Source: a virus
Strand: one strand, 5' to 3'
DNA length: 44,135 bases
Virus record (IMG/VR): IMGVR_UViG_3300025099_000041
Coordinates: 1-44,135 of that record
Part shown: in pieces, positions 36,295 through 44,135 of the stretch
How positions within the stretch are numbered: position 1 is the first letter of the stretch
Layout of the letters: each line of letters opens with the position of its first letter
The notes under the pieces: generated by a model
Told to the model about the DNA's origin: nothing
The model's database searches: none
What the model saw: the letters and a program-made list of their open reading frames with translations, nothing else
Made by a program: the position numbers and the translations under genes

Positions 36295-36809
36295 TTCATT
36301 ATCCTGACGTATGAATCAGTGATGTCTACTTCTGAGTCTTCAGTGACTAGATTGTAAATGAATTCCCTGTCAGCTTCATTGACTGATACATTACGCTCAA
36401 ACAATTCTGACTCTGGTGCTGTCTTATACCATGTCTCTAAATCATTCTTCCATGTGATAGAATCATTGTATTCATAGTCTAAATCTTTAGAAACTAAAGT
36501 ATTTCTTGGTGTATCTTTAAAGTATATTATGACTCCATCGTCTGTCTTGCGTATGGCAGTCTTTGTTCTGAGTATTGTATACTTCTCTTCGTTGAAGTTA
36601 TCCACAATGAACTTGAATCCATCATTGAGCTTAACGTATAGAGTGTTTGGAGTGTAGCCTGTTTGTTGTGCATTGACGTATGCATCTTTACCAGACTCTA
36701 TCAATCTATCTAGTATTGGTTGTATCTGCTGTGCAGATGACGGACAATAACTAGATCTTCTTGACTGAGTTTTCTTTAGTTGGTTTATTGTAACGTTTTC
36801 GATTTGCAT
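36291..36809 (-). CDS. Hypothetical protein, second gene of the sigma-54-driven operon
   Basis: 172 aa. Ser/Gln-rich start (KKTQSRRSSYCPSSAQQIQP), then a central beta domain (TLYVKLNDGFKFIVDNFNE; GVIIYFKDTP) and an acidic C-terminus (NLVTEDSEVDITDSYVRIMK). No membrane segment or catalytic motif. Overlaps the preceding gene by 25 bases. Unknown function. Confidence 0.7.
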   Translation of the reverse strand: MQIENVTINQLKKTQSRRSSYCPSSAQQIQPILDRLIESGKDAYVNAQQTGYTPNTLYVKLNDGFKFIVDNFNEEKYTILRTKTAIRKTDDGVIIYFKDTPRNTLVSKDLDYEYNDSITWKNDLETWYKTAPESELFERNVSVNEADREFIYNLVTEDSEVDITDSYVRIMK

Positions 36810-37186
36810 TGATCCATGTAGTTTTCTGCTGTTTCTTTATTACCCTTCGCGAACTCTGCTTGTGCCAGTAGAAATAGTTTTCTTGCTGACAATTCCTTGA
36901 GACTTGGAGTCCATTCATTAGCTTCGTCTTGTGTTAGTAATGTACCATCAGGATGCTTGCGATATAGCTCGTCTTTATAACGTTCTAGTTCTGATGTTGG
37001 TAAGTTCTTTGGTAAAGAGTTCTTAACCTTTGCTCTGATCCTTGTCTGTACTTGCTGGTTTACTAATGCAAGTAATGTCTTGTCTCCGTATGATTCAACA
37101 ACTTCGTCAAGACTTTCAAAAACTGGGGTAAAAAAACTGAACCCCTTAAAATCTCCATCGATGAATTTTTCTTTCTTATAAGTCAT
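36785..37186 (-). CDS. Hypothetical protein, first gene of the sigma-54-driven operon
   Basis: 133 aa, helical, charged. It contains FKGFSFFTPVFESLDEVVES, then a helix-rich middle (LLALVNQQVQTRIRAKVKNS) and YRKHPDGTLLTQDEANEW. It begins about 16 bases after the predicted sigma-54 transcription start, without a clear ribosome site. Function unknown; as promoter-proximal gene it should be the best expressed of the operon. Confidence 0.7.
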   Translation of the reverse strand: MTYKKEKFIDGDFKGFSFFTPVFESLDEVVESYGDKTLLALVNQQVQTRIRAKVKNSLPKNLPTSELERYKDELYRKHPDGTLLTQDEANEWTPSLKELSARKLFLLAQAEFAKGNKETAENYMDQCKSKTLQ

Positions 37187-37249: not shown

Positions 37250-37981
37250 TTAATAGATGATTAATTCTCCTAGTGTCTTATAACGTGCGACTATACTGTG
37301 TAGTTCTCTATAGTTGCCAAGGAGTTTAGTCTTAGACAAAATTGTTTTCGTAAGTTCTTCTGGTTTAGGGATTTGCATAGCTTTCAAATAGAGTACGATG
37401 TCTTGTGGTCTGTCCCTGAGTGGTGATGTCTTGATAATGAAGGTTGAGATTCTGAAGTATAGATCCAATCTAAACCTACCTTCCTCAACTTCCTTGCGTA
37501 AATCTTTGTTGGTTGAGAATACAAAACGACAAGTTGCATTGTACTCCGAAGCGTCTCCTATCTTATTATACTTCTTGTATTGTATAAACCTAAGTAGCTT
37601 GGGTTGTAAATGATATGGTAGTTCTCCTATCTCATCTAAAAAAAGCGTTCCCTTGTGTGCTTGTTGCACAAATCCTGTGGCATCTCTTGTTGCTCCAGTA
37701 AATGAACCCTTCAAGTGTCCGAAAAGTAACGATTCAAATAGATCTTCTTGCAAGGTTGTTACGTTTACTGGTACGAAATTTGTTGCGTGTCTTGAGTCTG
37801 ATGATGGTTGTCTATTGCCATGCAATATTTGAGCCATAGTTTCCTTGCCTGTGCCAGACTCCCCCATCACTAGGACAGGGGAATCGTGGCATGACAAGAT
37901 ATTCGCATGATAAATTTGGTTTACCATGAACTTATCTTCTGTGATTAGACTATTCAATGTCTTCAATCTCTTCGATTTCAA
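37250..37981 (-). CDS. Sigma-54-dependent transcription activator, AAA+ domain only
   Basis: 243 aa, an enhancer-binding-protein AAA+ domain: Walker A GESGTGKE (40-47), the sigma-54 contact loop GSFTGA (92-97, normally GAFTGA), Walker B TLFLDEIGELP (112-122), sensor I STNKD (156-160), arginine fingers in FRLDLYFR (Arg171, Arg177) and sensor II GNYREL (222-227). All residues needed to hydrolyse ATP and remodel RpoN-polymerase are present. Receiver/PAS domains and the C-terminal Fis-type HTH are absent; the chain ends 16 residues after sensor II. It should work from solution, like FlgR-type activators without DNA-binding. It ends an early leftward unit; three sigma-54 promoters are in this genome. 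Confidence 0.92.
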   Translation of the reverse strand: MKSKRLKTLNSLITEDKFMVNQIYHANILSCHDSPVLVMGESGTGKETMAQILHGNRQPSSDSRHATNFVPVNVTTLQEDLFESLLFGHLKGSFTGATRDATGFVQQAHKGTLFLDEIGELPYHLQPKLLRFIQYKKYNKIGDASEYNATCRFVFSTNKDLRKEVEEGRFRLDLYFRISTFIIKTSPLRDRPQDIVLYLKAMQIPKPEELTKTILSKTKLLGNYRELHSIVARYKTLGELIIY

Positions 37982-40980: not shown

Positions 40981-41274
40981 TTAATGTCCGTAGTTGAATC
41001 CTATTATATAGATGCTTTCCATATCAAACACGAGGAAATCATGCGAGCCACAACATCCCGAAATTCTGATGCGTTTATATTTATCAGATGATTCTTTATC
41101 TCCACTAATCTCATGGACTCTAAGTGTATCAACGTAGTCATAGTTTTTAGATTCTTGAATGAATCTATGACAAACTTTTTCCGACTTAGTTTTACTCCAT
41201 AGTATGTAGACATTAGCATAAGATACTTCATTATCTGCGGCATACTTTTTTATACGTTCTAATTCTTGGTTCAT
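40981..41274 (-). CDS. Hypothetical early protein
   Basis: 97 aa starting at MNQELERIKKYAADNEVSYA (ATG 41274). An in-frame ATG at 41304 would put the upstream terminator stem inside the coding sequence (it would read PPQGGFSFT) and is rejected. Mixed fold with IYIIGFNYGH at the end and two Cys in RISGCCGSHDF. Terminators on both sides make it monocistronic, yet no clear promoter fits the short gap; read-through or a promoter further upstream is needed. Confidence 0.6.
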   Translation of the reverse strand: MNQELERIKKYAADNEVSYANVYILWSKTKSEKVCHRFIQESKNYDYVDTLRVHEISGDKESSDKYKRIRISGCCGSHDFLVFDMESIYIIGFNYGH

Positions 41275-41278
41275 GGTA

Positions 41279-41302
41279 AAAGAAAAGCCCCCTTGCGGGG
41301 GC
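41279..41302 (-). terminator. Rho-independent terminator
   Basis: Minus strand GCCCCC-GCAA-GGGGGC (41287-41302) followed by TTTTCTTTT; closes the gene at 41310-41540. Confidence 0.9.
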
Positions 41303-41309
41303 ATTGTGA

Positions 41310-41540
41310 TTAACTGATATATGCTTCAATGTTAATATCGGCATTGGATACCGCATCAGTTGCCGCCTCTTGGGCAATGGTTTCCATATCATCCTTGACT
41401 TCGTTGATTACTTTATCAACAAGTTTTTCTTGATCGACAATGTCAACCATTCCAGTTGCTAAAATGGTTTGCATTAAATCAGTTGTTGATTTGATCCAAG
41501 CTTCTTGAGCTTCCTTTATTTTATCATCATGGTTTGCCAT
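41310..41540 (-). CDS. Small acidic helical early protein
   Basis: 76 aa, helical, acidic: KIKEAQEAWIKSTTDLMQTI, then DKVINEVKDDMETIAQEAAT and a short tail. First gene of the leftward block; closed by its own terminator. Expressed early if the promoter in 41541-41600 is sigma-70 dependent; I see only AT-rich -10-like sequences there. No family. Confidence 0.6.
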   Translation of the reverse strand: MANHDDKIKEAQEAWIKSTTDLMQTILATGMVDIVDQEKLVDKVINEVKDDMETIAQEAATDAVSNADINIEAYIS

Positions 41541-41581
41541 AACTCAATTAGTGTCTCATGCTGGTGATATTCTACAAGATA

Positions 41582-41598
41582 AAAATAAACTTTATTTT
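41582..41598. repeat. 17-bp palindrome AAAATAAA-C-TTTATTTT
   Basis: Perfect 8-bp arms in the gap between the divergent early units. It could be an operator. The AAACTTTATTTT part recurs at about 42253-42264 upstream of the sigma-54 promoter at 42273. Confidence 0.7.
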
Positions 41599-41601
41599 GT
41601 G

Positions 41602-41617
41602 TGGTTTATGGCTTGCG
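41602..41617 (+). promoter_or_regulatory. Possible weak sigma-54 promoter for the candidate RNA
   Basis: TGGTTTATGGCTTGCG has GG and GC exactly 10 bases apart with a perfect TTGC, but CACG of the -24 box is lost. The predicted start (about 41628) coincides with the 5' base of the hairpin at 41627. The overall match is too weak to be sure. Confidence 0.35.
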
Positions 41618-41624
41618 TTTCTCT

Positions 41625-41745
41625 GGACAGCCCGATAGGGAATGAGGAGGAACGACGATCCCTCGGGCTGTATCTAACTAATACTCGAAGAGACTCGTAA
41701 GAGCGTGACTGAAAGGAACAATTAGTTAGTTACATGATTTTTTTT
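41625..41745 (+). ncRNA. Candidate structured noncoding RNA
   Basis: First element: ACAGCCCG (41627-41634) pairs with CGGGCTGT (41664-41671), and AGGGA (41637-41641) with TCCCT (41659-41663), enclosing a 17-base purine loop with AGGAGG. Second element: CTAACTAAT (41674-41682) pairs with ATTAGTTAG (41721-41729), enclosing two tandem mini-hairpins CTC-GAA-GAG and CTC-GTAA-GAG, the latter a GNRA loop. A run of eight T follows at 41738-41745. No gene of any length fits 41541-41819. Five GGA motifs, several in loops, hint at binding of a CsrA-type protein, which is speculative. No known RNA family recognised. Confidence 0.5.
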
Positions 41746-41778
41746 GTCAGCAACTCAGAAGAAACCAATCATATTGTA

Positions 41779-41787
41779 TGAGATAAT
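41779..41787 (+). promoter_or_regulatory. Extended -10 promoter for the gene at 41820
   Basis: TGAGATAAT matches the extended -10 form TGnTATAAT in all but one position; the -35 region is poor. Start would be near 41794, 26 bases before the ATG. Confidence 0.35.
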
Positions 41788-41819
41788 GTGTTGACATTGA
41801 TGTTGATTCTGGCATCCTA

Positions 41820-42065
41820 ATGCCTGTTATGCAAACCATTGATAATAATTCTAAGCGTCAGATTGAAGATCTGCAATTGCAAGTAGCTCATCTTTTGAGT
41901 GAGCAAGAGCGTGATAATGTATCATTGCTGGCTCTGTTAGACCGTGTAAGCAATCTAAAGACTGAGGTTAATAGTTTGATTGATATTGTTAAAGAAGCTG
42001 AAGAATTGATCGATTACCTTAAGGGTAGAAATACATTTCTGGAAAGGAAGCTTAAAGATGAATAG
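41820..42065 (+). CDS. Small coiled-coil protein
   Basis: 81 aa, one continuous helix with heptads (KRQIEDLQLQVAHLLSEQER; KTEVNSLIDIVKEAEELIDY) and a basic end. An alternative ATG at 41829 removes three residues. It is followed by an overlapping membrane microprotein and a terminator, so the two make a short rightward operon. A soluble coiled coil paired with a membrane peptide could be a lysis timing or regulatory pair; not recognised. Confidence 0.65.
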   Translation: MPVMQTIDNNSKRQIEDLQLQVAHLLSEQERDNVSLLALLDRVSNLKTEVNSLIDIVKEAEELIDYLKGRNTFLERKLKDE

Positions 42066-42135
42066 CATGGATGCCTTCACCATCTTCTGTTTAGTGGGGT
42101 GGTTTATAATACTTGTTTTAATGGCTTTCTTTTGA
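42058..42135 (+). CDS. 25-residue single-span membrane microprotein
   Basis: MNSMDAFTIFCLVGWFIILV then LMAFF: almost entirely one membrane helix. The ATG overlaps the end of the coiled-coil gene by 8 bases and has AAGGAAG as a ribosome site at the proper distance. Its stop lies inside the terminator stem. Looks like a real micro-gene. Confidence 0.55.
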   Translation: MNSMDAFTIFCLVGWFIILVLMAFF

Positions 42136-42148
42136 AAGCCATTTTTTT
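42121..42148 (+). terminator. Rho-independent terminator
   Basis: ATGGCTTTC (42121-42129) and GAAAGCCAT (42134-42142), loop TTTT, then T-run. Closes the small operon from 41820 and insulates the sigma-54 unit downstream. Confidence 0.9.
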
Positions 42149-42150
42149 GT

Positions 42151-42182
42151 ACCCCTAGGGGTTTGAAGGGGGAGGGGGGCCA
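42151..42182. repeat. Palindrome ACCCCTAGGGGT and G-rich tract
   Basis: Perfect 12-bp palindrome at 42151-42162 followed by GAAGGGGGAGGGGGGCCA. The nonamer GGGGGGCCA (42174-42182) recurs at 40872-40880 in the inverted-repeat region. G-runs stand out in this AT-rich DNA. The rest of 42183-42272 shows nothing else I can name. Confidence 0.6.
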
Positions 42183-42272
42183 GAAGCAGCGGTCCTACTG
42201 GACTATAACCACGTGTGAAAAAATGACCTCAAAAACTCTATGAGAAACAGAAAACTTTATTTTATAAAATCT

Positions 42273-42288
42273 TGGCACGATCATTGCT
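42273..42288 (+). promoter_or_regulatory. Sigma-54 promoter of the large right-end gene
   Basis: TGGCACGATCATTGCT fits TGGCACG-N4-TTGCW at all defined positions, with exact GG-N10-GC spacing. The ten bases TGGCACGATC are identical to the capsid promoter. Start is expected near 42299, leaving a leader of about 80 bases, as for the capsid gene. Confidence 0.85.
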
Positions 42289-42378
42289 GTATGTTATATA
42301 TGTGTTCGAGAACATTAGAAATTTGCAGAGAGACTCCGTTAATCAAATACGCACAACACTTCAATCCTAACCTATTCG

Positions 42379-44135
42379 ATGTCTGGACAAGATAACTCAG
42401 TAGAAAATTTCGCACAAGAACCTCTAGCGGAGGGTCCATTAATAAAATACACACCGGGAGGCACTGCTGCTGGTCGTGCGTTAGACAGTGGATTACCACC
42501 TGCTAGAGCGCAACTTGGTGGTGGTGAATTTTGGGGGCAACTCGTTCAACCGGGAAACTTCAACCTAGACAACACAGGTGGAGGCAACACAGGTGGAGGA
42601 GGATCTGTAGATGATGGAGGATTAACAGACGAACAAACAGGTGCAATTATAGACGACGAAAATAAATATTTAGATACTCTCGGACCAGTTGACTACAAAC
42701 CAGTTGATTGGCAGTTTAATCCAGATTTACTACAACAGGTTGAAAATTATCAAGGTACAAAATTTTTTCCTGAAGAAGCTTCTGGAGGAGCTTATGGTTG
42801 GGGTACGTCTGGTCCAATAGTTGAAGGTCCAGATCAAGAACCATCTACTGGGAATAAAAATTTTAGAACCTATCTAAATTCTGGAGGCACAACAGATGAG
42901 CAAGGCCGTTATGTAGCAGCAGGAGCTAGACTACCAGAATGGGCGTATCAATATCCTAATTGGTCTAAAACTGTGAGTTTTGGTGGAGATCTTCCATCAA
43001 CAGGAGAAATACTATTTCCTAAAATAAGTGAATGGATGGCAGGTAATCAAGGTAAAACAACAGAAGATTATCACAAAGCAAGAGACTTTCATTTTTACAA
43101 ACAAAAATACTACAACGAAAATAACAAATCAGCGATCAATGCGTTGACAGGAATGCTTTCTGAGAGTGAGAAATTTATTGATGCAGCATTAGGGCAAAGA
43201 ACCGCAGATCAAAGACCGTTACCAGAAGGTTATGCAAAAAATCCTATATACAGATATGCAAATAAGTTTAAAGAAATTCTAGACGGTGTATCAGATGAAC
43301 AGATTAAATGGTGGGAAACAAGAGGAATTGCAGCAGATCCGTCAGGTAAAGAACCATTTGGTCCAAGATTTACACCAGATAATGTACAAACATTAATGAA
43401 AAATGCAGGGACTTCATTGTCTAATGCAATAAAAATACTTCAGGGTAAAGATGAAGAAGTACAAGCACTCAAAAAAGCAGATCCACAAAAATACGGACAA
43501 TTACAAGTATTAGCATTAATAAACACAGCAGCACTGGTAAATGCATACGGTCCTTATGGGTTATTGCCGGGAGGTATAATGACAGGGGCAAGTGACATAA
43601 TGTCAGCAATGAATGGTGCATTAGCAGAACGCCCAGAGTTAAAAGGAAATCCAATACAAGATGTTGTACATTCTACAATGTGGATTGGAGGTAAAGCAGC
43701 ACAACTTGCATACAACAAAACACTAGGAGCAATATTACCTAAAACTCAGATAAAAGATAAAGCATCAATAGTAGGTTCAGCAAAGAAAAATTTAAAATTA
43801 GAAGACTGGGGAAAACAACTTGATTCACCAGAACTTACTGGATTAACGATTACGTTTGATCCAAATATGAAAAAACCAGTAAGAGAAGGGCCACAACGAG
43901 AATTTAAAACTCTATCACCGCTAGATCCAACTAAAGTTGATGTACCACCTACAACATTTATACAGCCCGGTAAACCAGTAAACACGGGTGCTGATGATAA
44001 AAGAGAAGATATAAGAGATGATGAAAGACGCATAGAAACAGGAGGCGGTGGACCTATAACAAGAGTACCATCAGACAACGTGCCAATTCCAAGTGATCCA
44101 CGAGACACTCCACCTAGAACAACTGGACCTTTAGG
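42379..44135 (+). CDS. Large protein of unknown function, 3'-truncated (probable virion protein)
   Basis: Open from ATG 42379 (frame closed upstream by a stop at 42340) to the window end, 585 codons without a stop. The N-terminus is disordered and Gly-rich (NLDNTGGGNTGGGG). The middle is helical and aromatic (YHKARDFHFYKQKYYN; QIKWWETRGI), with a mildly hydrophobic Ala/Gly stretch (LVNAYGPYGLLPGGIMTGAS). The last 100 residues are Pro/Asp/Arg-rich and disordered. It is driven by a capsid-like sigma-54 promoter, which suggests a late, abundant virion protein, perhaps an internal or tail component. No family is recognised; no enzyme motif is seen. Confidence 0.8.
   Translation, partial: MSGQDNSVENFAQEPLAEGPLIKYTPGGTAAGRALDSGLPPARAQLGGGEFWGQLVQPGNFNLDNTGGGNTGGGGSVDDGGLTDEQTGAIIDDENKYLDTLGPVDYKPVDWQFNPDLLQQVENYQGTKFFPEEASGGAYGWGTSGPIVEGPDQEPSTGNKNFRTYLNSGGTTDEQGRYVAAGARLPEWAYQYPNWSKTVSFGGDLPSTGEILFPKISEWMAGNQGKTTEDYHKARDFHFYKQKYYNENNKSAINALTGMLSESEKFIDAALGQRTADQRPLPEGYAKNPIYRYANKFKEILDGVSDEQIKWWETRGIAADPSGKEPFGPRFTPDNVQTLMKNAGTSLSNAIKILQGKDEEVQALKKADPQKYGQLQVLALINTAALVNAYGPYGLLPGGIMTGASDIMSAMNGALAERPELKGNPIQDVVHSTMWIGGKAAQLAYNKTLGAILPKTQIKDKASIVGSAKKNLKLEDWGKQLDSPELTGLTITFDPNMKKPVREGPQREFKTLSPLDPTKVDVPPTTFIQPGKPVNTGADDKREDIRDDERRIETGGGGPITRVPSDNVPIPSDPRDTPPRTTGPL

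Follow-up and report, generated by a model that had tools for sequence, protein, structure and literature searches.

A predicted conserved structured RNA between the two gene halves of an uncultured marine phage genome

Organization of the locus

The window analyzed here, that is, the whole 44,135-nt stretch of viral DNA (IMG/VR record IMGVR_UViG_3300025099_000041), carries a predicted structured RNA between the two gene halves of an uncultured marine phage genome. The site is a gap of 279 nt without genes (41541–41819), flanked by a leftward ORF (41310–41540) and a rightward ORF (41820–42065). A sequence-only reading had described a gene-free stretch of 120 bases at this place: the stretch is indeed present but is longer than was stated. 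The stem-loops, tandem mini-hairpins and T8 run of that description were all located, and its AGGAGG lies in the loop of P1. The features of the region are as follows (all on the + strand):

41605–41626 (+): upstream element conserved in subtype A, with 90–97% identity to four relatives over 41605–41634; either the 5′ part of the transcript or a promoter element
41617–41766 (+): outer helix P0, GTTTCT-CTG with CAG-A-AGAAAC, from alifold with flanks; tentative and speculative
41627–41732 (+): RNA core, P1 followed by P2 enclosing P3, P4 and P5; cmsearch score 94.4 bits, with 10 further contigs containing homologues
41627–41671 (+): P1 hairpin, ACAGCCCGA/TCGGGCTGT (arms 41627–41635/41663–41671), distal part variable; 98.6% of cells paired
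41674–41729 (+): P2 helix, CTAACTAAT/ATTAGTTAG (arms 41674–41682/41721–41729), A-U-rich and strongly sequence-conserved; 98.0% of cells paired
41684–41692 (+): mini-hairpin P3, CUC-GAA-GAG; middle pair U-A, C-G, A-U or G-C across 10 sequences
41694–41703 (+): mini-hairpin P4, CUC-GUAA-GAG, in subtype A only (alignment A6, alifold)
41705–41719 (+): possible hairpin P5, in subtype A only (alifold of six subtype-A sequences)
41738–41745 (+): T8 run, missing from the terminator scan list
41820–42065 (+): small ORF, predicted coiled-coil, preceded by a TTGACA promoter-like motif; no PHROG match
42120–42143 (+): first canonical intrinsic terminator after the RNA (terminator scan)

Folding of the 106-nt core gives −33.2 kcal/mol, compared to −22.2±3.4 for shuffled sequences (z −3.2; none of 200 as good). 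For the longer piece 41602–41752 (the stretch of the sequence-only reading plus 7 nt) the fold is less distinct (z −2.4; 4 of 200 shuffles as good), and its single-sequence optimum is another fold in which P2 is broken; likewise, adding flanks to the window sequence alone favors other folds that break P2. Single-sequence folding by itself is therefore no proof of structure, and P2 in particular rests on comparative evidence. One alternative fold, in which the upstream TTGCGTTTCTCT pairs with the P3–P4 region, was not selected by the alignment. P5 would consist of GU-GA-CU, a GAA or GGAA loop and AG-GA-AC, including tandem G.A pairs; it is without covariation. The T8 run has no GC-rich stem directly 5′ and is thus not a canonical terminator; the corresponding position is U-rich in most, not all, relatives.

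Distribution of the element

The element was found in 11 contigs (10 distinct sequences) of a single viral clade, the window included. The clade was gathered by terminase searches of IMG/VR (81–100% identity). Of 16 loci from one of these searches, all eight whose contigs reach the region carry the element (L002, L003, L004, L006, L007, L008, L014 and L015; that of L007 lies at the opposite end of the same contig, as locus L031), and the other eight (L005, L009–L013, L016 and L017) start within the 1.7 kb that precede the terminase. Two further members, L018 and L027, were added through DNA patterns. The sequences comprise subtype A (window, L002, L003, L014, L015 and L018), subtype B1 (L006, L027 and L031) and subtype B2 (L004 and L008, the latter cut at its 5′ end); a pattern scan for B2-like variants returned just the two known members.

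A covariance model (R1) recovers every member at 47–114 bits, and each of the 11 clade records contains a single strong match; a twelfth record (L033), the whole contig of which was searched with R1, gave no match. Weak minus-strand matches on L006, L031 and L002 (14–18 bits) overlap the element's own palindromes and stems. Because the sequences from which R1 was built match it by construction, recovery by the model is a consistency check only: the independent finding is recovery by blastn and by patterns. Six pattern matches were dropped before counting, one (L023) judged by eye to be a chance match and five (L025, L026, L028, L029 and L030) having no P1 by eye; of these five, R1 lists L025 alone (14.7 bits, E 2.7).

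No RNA was detected in the searched loci of more distant relatives (L033–L047, terminase 24–50% identical), the best match being 13.5 bits (E 1.4); among these the whole-contig search covered L033. In three of them a conserved stretch, rich in palindromes and bearing T-runs, lies close to where the arms diverge (L036 8535–8660, L038 8388–8513 and L042 8537–8662). These stretches are perhaps stacked terminators and are not the same element as the RNA. A search with the neighboring protein 40089 led to one further contig, L062; no RNA was matched at its locus, and by our reading the contig stops before the region. A host or prophage origin was considered and set aside: a scan of genome contigs with CTAATACNCN{12,42}ATTAGTTAGTTA returned one match (L053), unrecognized by the covariance model. 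With window 41000–42400, L015, L006 and L004 as blastn queries against annotated phages, no RNA homologue was present among the matches listed; those for L006 and L004 are the neighboring terminator, plus a weak match to a Dickeya phage. The annotated phage collection includes no close isolate, with all DNA polymerase and terminase matches below 60% identity.

Conservation and covariation

The element is the best-conserved stretch between two fast-diverging genes. A blastn search with window 41000–42600 finds it at 80–83% identity in four relatives. Computed in 30-nt steps against L002, L003, L015 and L014, identity is 77–97% in the structured parts and 47–70% in the variable P1 loop, falling to 45–68% before 41605 and 28–63% after 41725. 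At E 1e-4, tblastn matched the neighboring proteins (41310 and 41820) to none of the other contigs; the element, in other words, outlasts its neighbors.

Compensatory changes are present in the related phages, both in P1 and in the middle pair of P3. In P1 (alignment A6) four of the eight modelled pairs show two-sided changes and none shows one-sided changes; the single unpaired cell belongs to L014, where the aligner had placed a gap within the stem. The middle pair of P3, in an alignment made by hand, takes all four Watson-Crick forms and is paired in 10 of 10 sequences, a result equalled by 0.025% of shuffles. P2 behaves differently. Of its 10 pairs six are invariant, two change from A-U to G-U in L008 and two are broken in L004 only, where by eye a bulge restores pairing; there are no two-sided changes, and the predicted pairing of P2 rests on the one G-U member.

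Cells with two-sided changes number 9, against 2.4±1.2 in shuffles (0 of 500), a count inflated by relatedness, the 10 distinct sequences falling into about four clusters. Of five measures compared with shuffles, three (cells paired, two-sided cells and covariation score) lie above all 500; two-sided pairs were reached by 15 of 500 and further pair types by 142 of 500, which is not exceptional. Sliding the partners reduces pairing from 98% to 9–45% and destroys the covariation. The alifold value of −39.3 compares with −13.7±2.7 for column shuffles, none of 100 being as good.

Together, covariation, conservation and the strand-specific loop motifs described below back the original suggestion of a candidate structured RNA, and we hold with high confidence that the element is a conserved structured RNA. 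Comparison among the relatives shows the predicted P1–P2–P3 fold to be under selection.

The same data bear on the possibility that the element acts as DNA (an operator, an enhancer or a replication origin), its palindromes merely mimicking RNA stems. It does lie at the point of arm divergence, near a local minimum of cumulative GC skew (a skew that gene direction alone could explain), and P2 is conserved in sequence as an operator would be. However, P1 is free to change while it continues to pair, which protein–DNA recognition does not predict; L008 has G-U pairs; and the P2 strand has 12 matches elsewhere in the genome (up to two mismatches) compared to 15.2 expected. A DNA element is, in our view, decidedly unlikely.

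The transcribed strand

Read on the + strand the tetraloops are GCAA, GGGA, GAGA, GUAA, GGAA and GGCA, five of six being of the GNRA type; on the − strand none of the six is GNRA or UNCG. Under random loops the binomial probability of this excess is 1.7e-7, a rough figure, since we ourselves chose the hairpins and set random loops as the null. Furthermore, the G-U pairs of P2 in L008 become A-C mismatches on the other strand. Because of these two observations the + strand is taken as the one transcribed, which we regard as very probable. Energy leaves the strand undecided: RNAalifold z scores are −9.4 (all sequences), −7.4 (A) and −4.5 (B) for the + strand and −9.7, −5.2 and −6.9, respectively, for the − strand, which is therefore the better-folding one when all sequences or those of subtype B are aligned.

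These energies, together with the position of the element just upstream of the leftward replication operon, would suit a minus-strand leader, in which the element formed part of the 5′ untranslated region of that operon. The GNRA loops and G-U pairs, present on the + strand only, argue otherwise, as do promoter-like minus-strand sites between the RNA and the leftward gene (L002 4962–4934 and L006 3051–3023), such sites being no commoner than in shuffles. We judge a minus-strand leader very unlikely.

Promoters, terminators and the neighboring gene slot

A −10-like sequence (TAAAAT or TATTTT) ends 25–31 nt before P1 in 7 of 10 sequences and a good −35 box before the RNA is missing; the case for a promoter of the RNA's own is weak. 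In the window, L006 and L002 the interval from the RNA through the first small + gene contains no canonical + strand terminator, an observation that counts against a discrete small RNA. Since the first such terminator lies only past the small gene, transcription from the putative RNA promoter may yield a long RNA that is then processed.

The + gene is preceded by a TTGACA-like promoter motif of its own in every sequence read (window, L002, L003, L014, L015, L018, L006, L031 and L027). In relatives, inspection by eye reveals a minus-strand cargo slot between the RNA and this gene: a promoter-like TTGAC-N-TACTCT and a hairpin, then a gene or none, then a minus-strand terminator (in L002 also listed by the terminator scan). 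The slot holds a gene of 34–39 aa in L002, L003, L014 and L018, a zinc-ribbon-like gene in L008 and a different ORF in L004; it is empty in L015, L006 and L031. Comparison thus shows that the predicted RNA is kept while the neighboring slot changes cargo. For the relatives, the idea that the RNA is the leader or a riboswitch of the downstream + gene was rejected because a minus-strand gene or empty slot intervenes; given this, and the gene's own promoter-like motif, the RNA is not simply that gene's leader.

Two side observations concern the same stretch. The minus-strand intrinsic terminator of L006 (3241–3271) is identical over 31 bases to one in Vibrio podophages (e.g., VP93), where the counterpart sits between the capsid and tail tubular genes; L027, L031, L004 and L008 have a minus-strand terminator beside the RNA in the same place. 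The identity suggests gene exchange or a Vibrio-like host. In addition, small genes at window 41792–41835 and at like places in L002, L006, L004 and L008 start, by eye, with a hairpin followed by TGTTATG, which stands instead of a clear Shine-Dalgarno sequence.

The transcriptional layout also provides the setting for our main rival explanation, antitermination in cis by an RNA like the put sites of phage HK022. Here the nascent RNA would bind its own polymerase and cause it to read through the terminator at 42120–42143 into the late operon, before the sigma-54 promoter of that operon is on. The RNA sits at the start of the rightward arm, the + strand is free of canonical terminators over the interval given above, and independence from the cargo fits a cis element equally well. 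Yet read-through is not obviously needed, the small gene having a promoter-like motif and the late operon a sigma-54 promoter, and the resemblance to put is putative. On balance we think cis antitermination improbable, more probable all the same than any other alternative weighed here.

The free position of the element between divergent arms would likewise suit a trans-acting small RNA that regulates phage or host messages by base pairing, and an A-rich strand after P3 (GAA…AAC), conserved in subtype B, could serve such a role. However, no long, unpaired, conserved seed is common to both subtypes, and in subtype A the A-rich strand can fold into P5. Base pairing as the function seems to us quite unlikely.

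Sigma-54 and the phage circuit

The sequence-only reading had proposed that the RNA is under sigma-54 control. The relevant features are:

41602–41617 (+): weak sigma-54-like match, judged non-functional
37250–37981 (−): sigma-54 activator, AAA+ domain with GSFTGA, 243 aa; Pfam Sigma54_activat E 6e-54
37229 (−): sigma-54 promoter of an early gene, preceding ORF 36785–37186
4933 (+): sigma-54 promoter preceding ORF 5042
42273–42288 (+): sigma-54 −24/−12 promoter belonging to the late operon and not to the RNA; 0 mismatches, preceding ORF 42379

In favor of such control, the phage genome carries a sigma-54 activator gene as well as good sigma-54 promoters, and the reported GG-N10-TTGC match does exist at 41602. 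The match is weak, however, with 5 of 12 positions mismatched; 1812 equally good sites occur in the window on both strands; the −24 GG is found in the window only, being absent from all five subtype-A relatives; and the readable subtype-B members (L006, L031, L027 and L004) have no such −24/−12 site. Because the site before the RNA is both poor and unconserved, the link between RNA and sigma-54 is unsupported, and a sigma-54-dependent small RNA is the least probable of the explanations, very close to being dismissed.

The sigma-54 circuit of the phage itself seems real. Three sites have no more than one mismatch to the −24/−12 consensus (4933, 42273 and 37229), with counterparts at like positions in relatives, and the phages of the clade seem to transcribe their late genes via host sigma-54, using an activator that they encode themselves. 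Inspection of the activator sequence by eye revealed no DNA-binding domain. Nine of nine more distant phage contigs tested also contain a Sigma54_activat match (open frames of 281–296 aa, 159–182 bits), in a search that matches in all 14 control genomes as well. For a Pectobacterium phage, a published report describes a putative sigma-54-factor-like protein (PMC7693777). A conserved small frame, EICxxTPLIKYA...NP (42300–42395, +), directly follows the promoter of the late operon and overlaps the beginning of ORF 42379.

Discussion

Our favored explanation is that the element represents a new family of structured RNA in phages, that the + strand is the one transcribed, and that the RNA probably serves as a protein-binding regulator. 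The RNA would be transcribed rightward from the place where the leftward (replication) and rightward (structural) arms diverge, presumably early in infection and from a host sigma-70-type promoter. Conserved P2 and the GNRA-capped mini-hairpins may form a compact binding surface by which the RNA, free or processed from a longer transcript, would bind a phage or host protein; such binding could regulate phage gene expression at the switch from early to late. Taken as a whole we give this reading an even chance. Its two more specific components are finely balanced: that the RNA is mainly free or processed, rather than a leader in cis, is as credible as the opposite, and the odds are similarly level on action through protein binding as against base pairing.

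A bolder possibility is that the RNA belongs to an undescribed class, marked by an A-U helix of conserved sequence bearing mini-hairpins with GNRA caps, that times the passage from early (sigma-70) to late (sigma-54, phage activator) expression, either through an effect in cis on RNA polymerase or by sequestering a regulatory protein. This we consider unlikely. Distant phages that keep the activator have no such RNA in the loci searched, so the RNA would be an added layer and not the core of the switch.

To our knowledge, few phage structured RNAs have comparative support. The present example is compact, is held at one place despite turnover of the adjacent genes, and is concrete enough to be tested, with named pairs, a strand and boundaries.

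Comparison with known RNAs and systems

The element matches no catalogued family. A search of the whole window against Rfam 15 gave no family above the gathering threshold; in 41500–41850, at E values up to 10, there were two matches, both far below threshold; and in five loci of relatives, at E up to 2, there were two sub-threshold matches, neither on the RNA core. The open-licence literature, in the parts accessible, yielded no description of the RNA or of a phage sigma-54 activator.

Qrr and GlmY/GlmZ are sigma-54-controlled small RNAs. The phage RNA is similar in being short and structured, in a genome that also uses sigma-54, but is without an Rfam match and without a conserved −24/−12 promoter. 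As to the earlier remark that a phage version would be new, no Rfam match makes the element a version of Qrr or of GlmY.

CsrB, RsmY and RsmZ are RNAs that titrate CsrA, a function also suggested for the element on account of its GGA-rich loops. GGA motifs do occur in several members, with core counts of 4, 3, 3, 5, 4 and 3 in subtype A, 3, 3 and 4 in B1, 2 in L004 and 0 in the truncated L008. In contrast to the known titrating RNAs, the mini-hairpin loops are GNRA or GAA, not GGA, and GGA is unconserved; CsrA titration does not hold up as a common function, and the idea is a weak one.

The put sites of HK022 are antitermination RNAs in two early operons. Here too a hairpin RNA encoded by a phage would stand at the start of one of its transcripts; the difference is that a single element is present, and the likeness to put is putative. 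A + terminator lies downstream of the RNA (42120–42143), and a promoter upstream is weakly supported. The prohead RNA of phi29 is likewise phage-encoded and structured, but there is no match to the Rfam pRNA, and the terminase and replication genes match other PHROGs.
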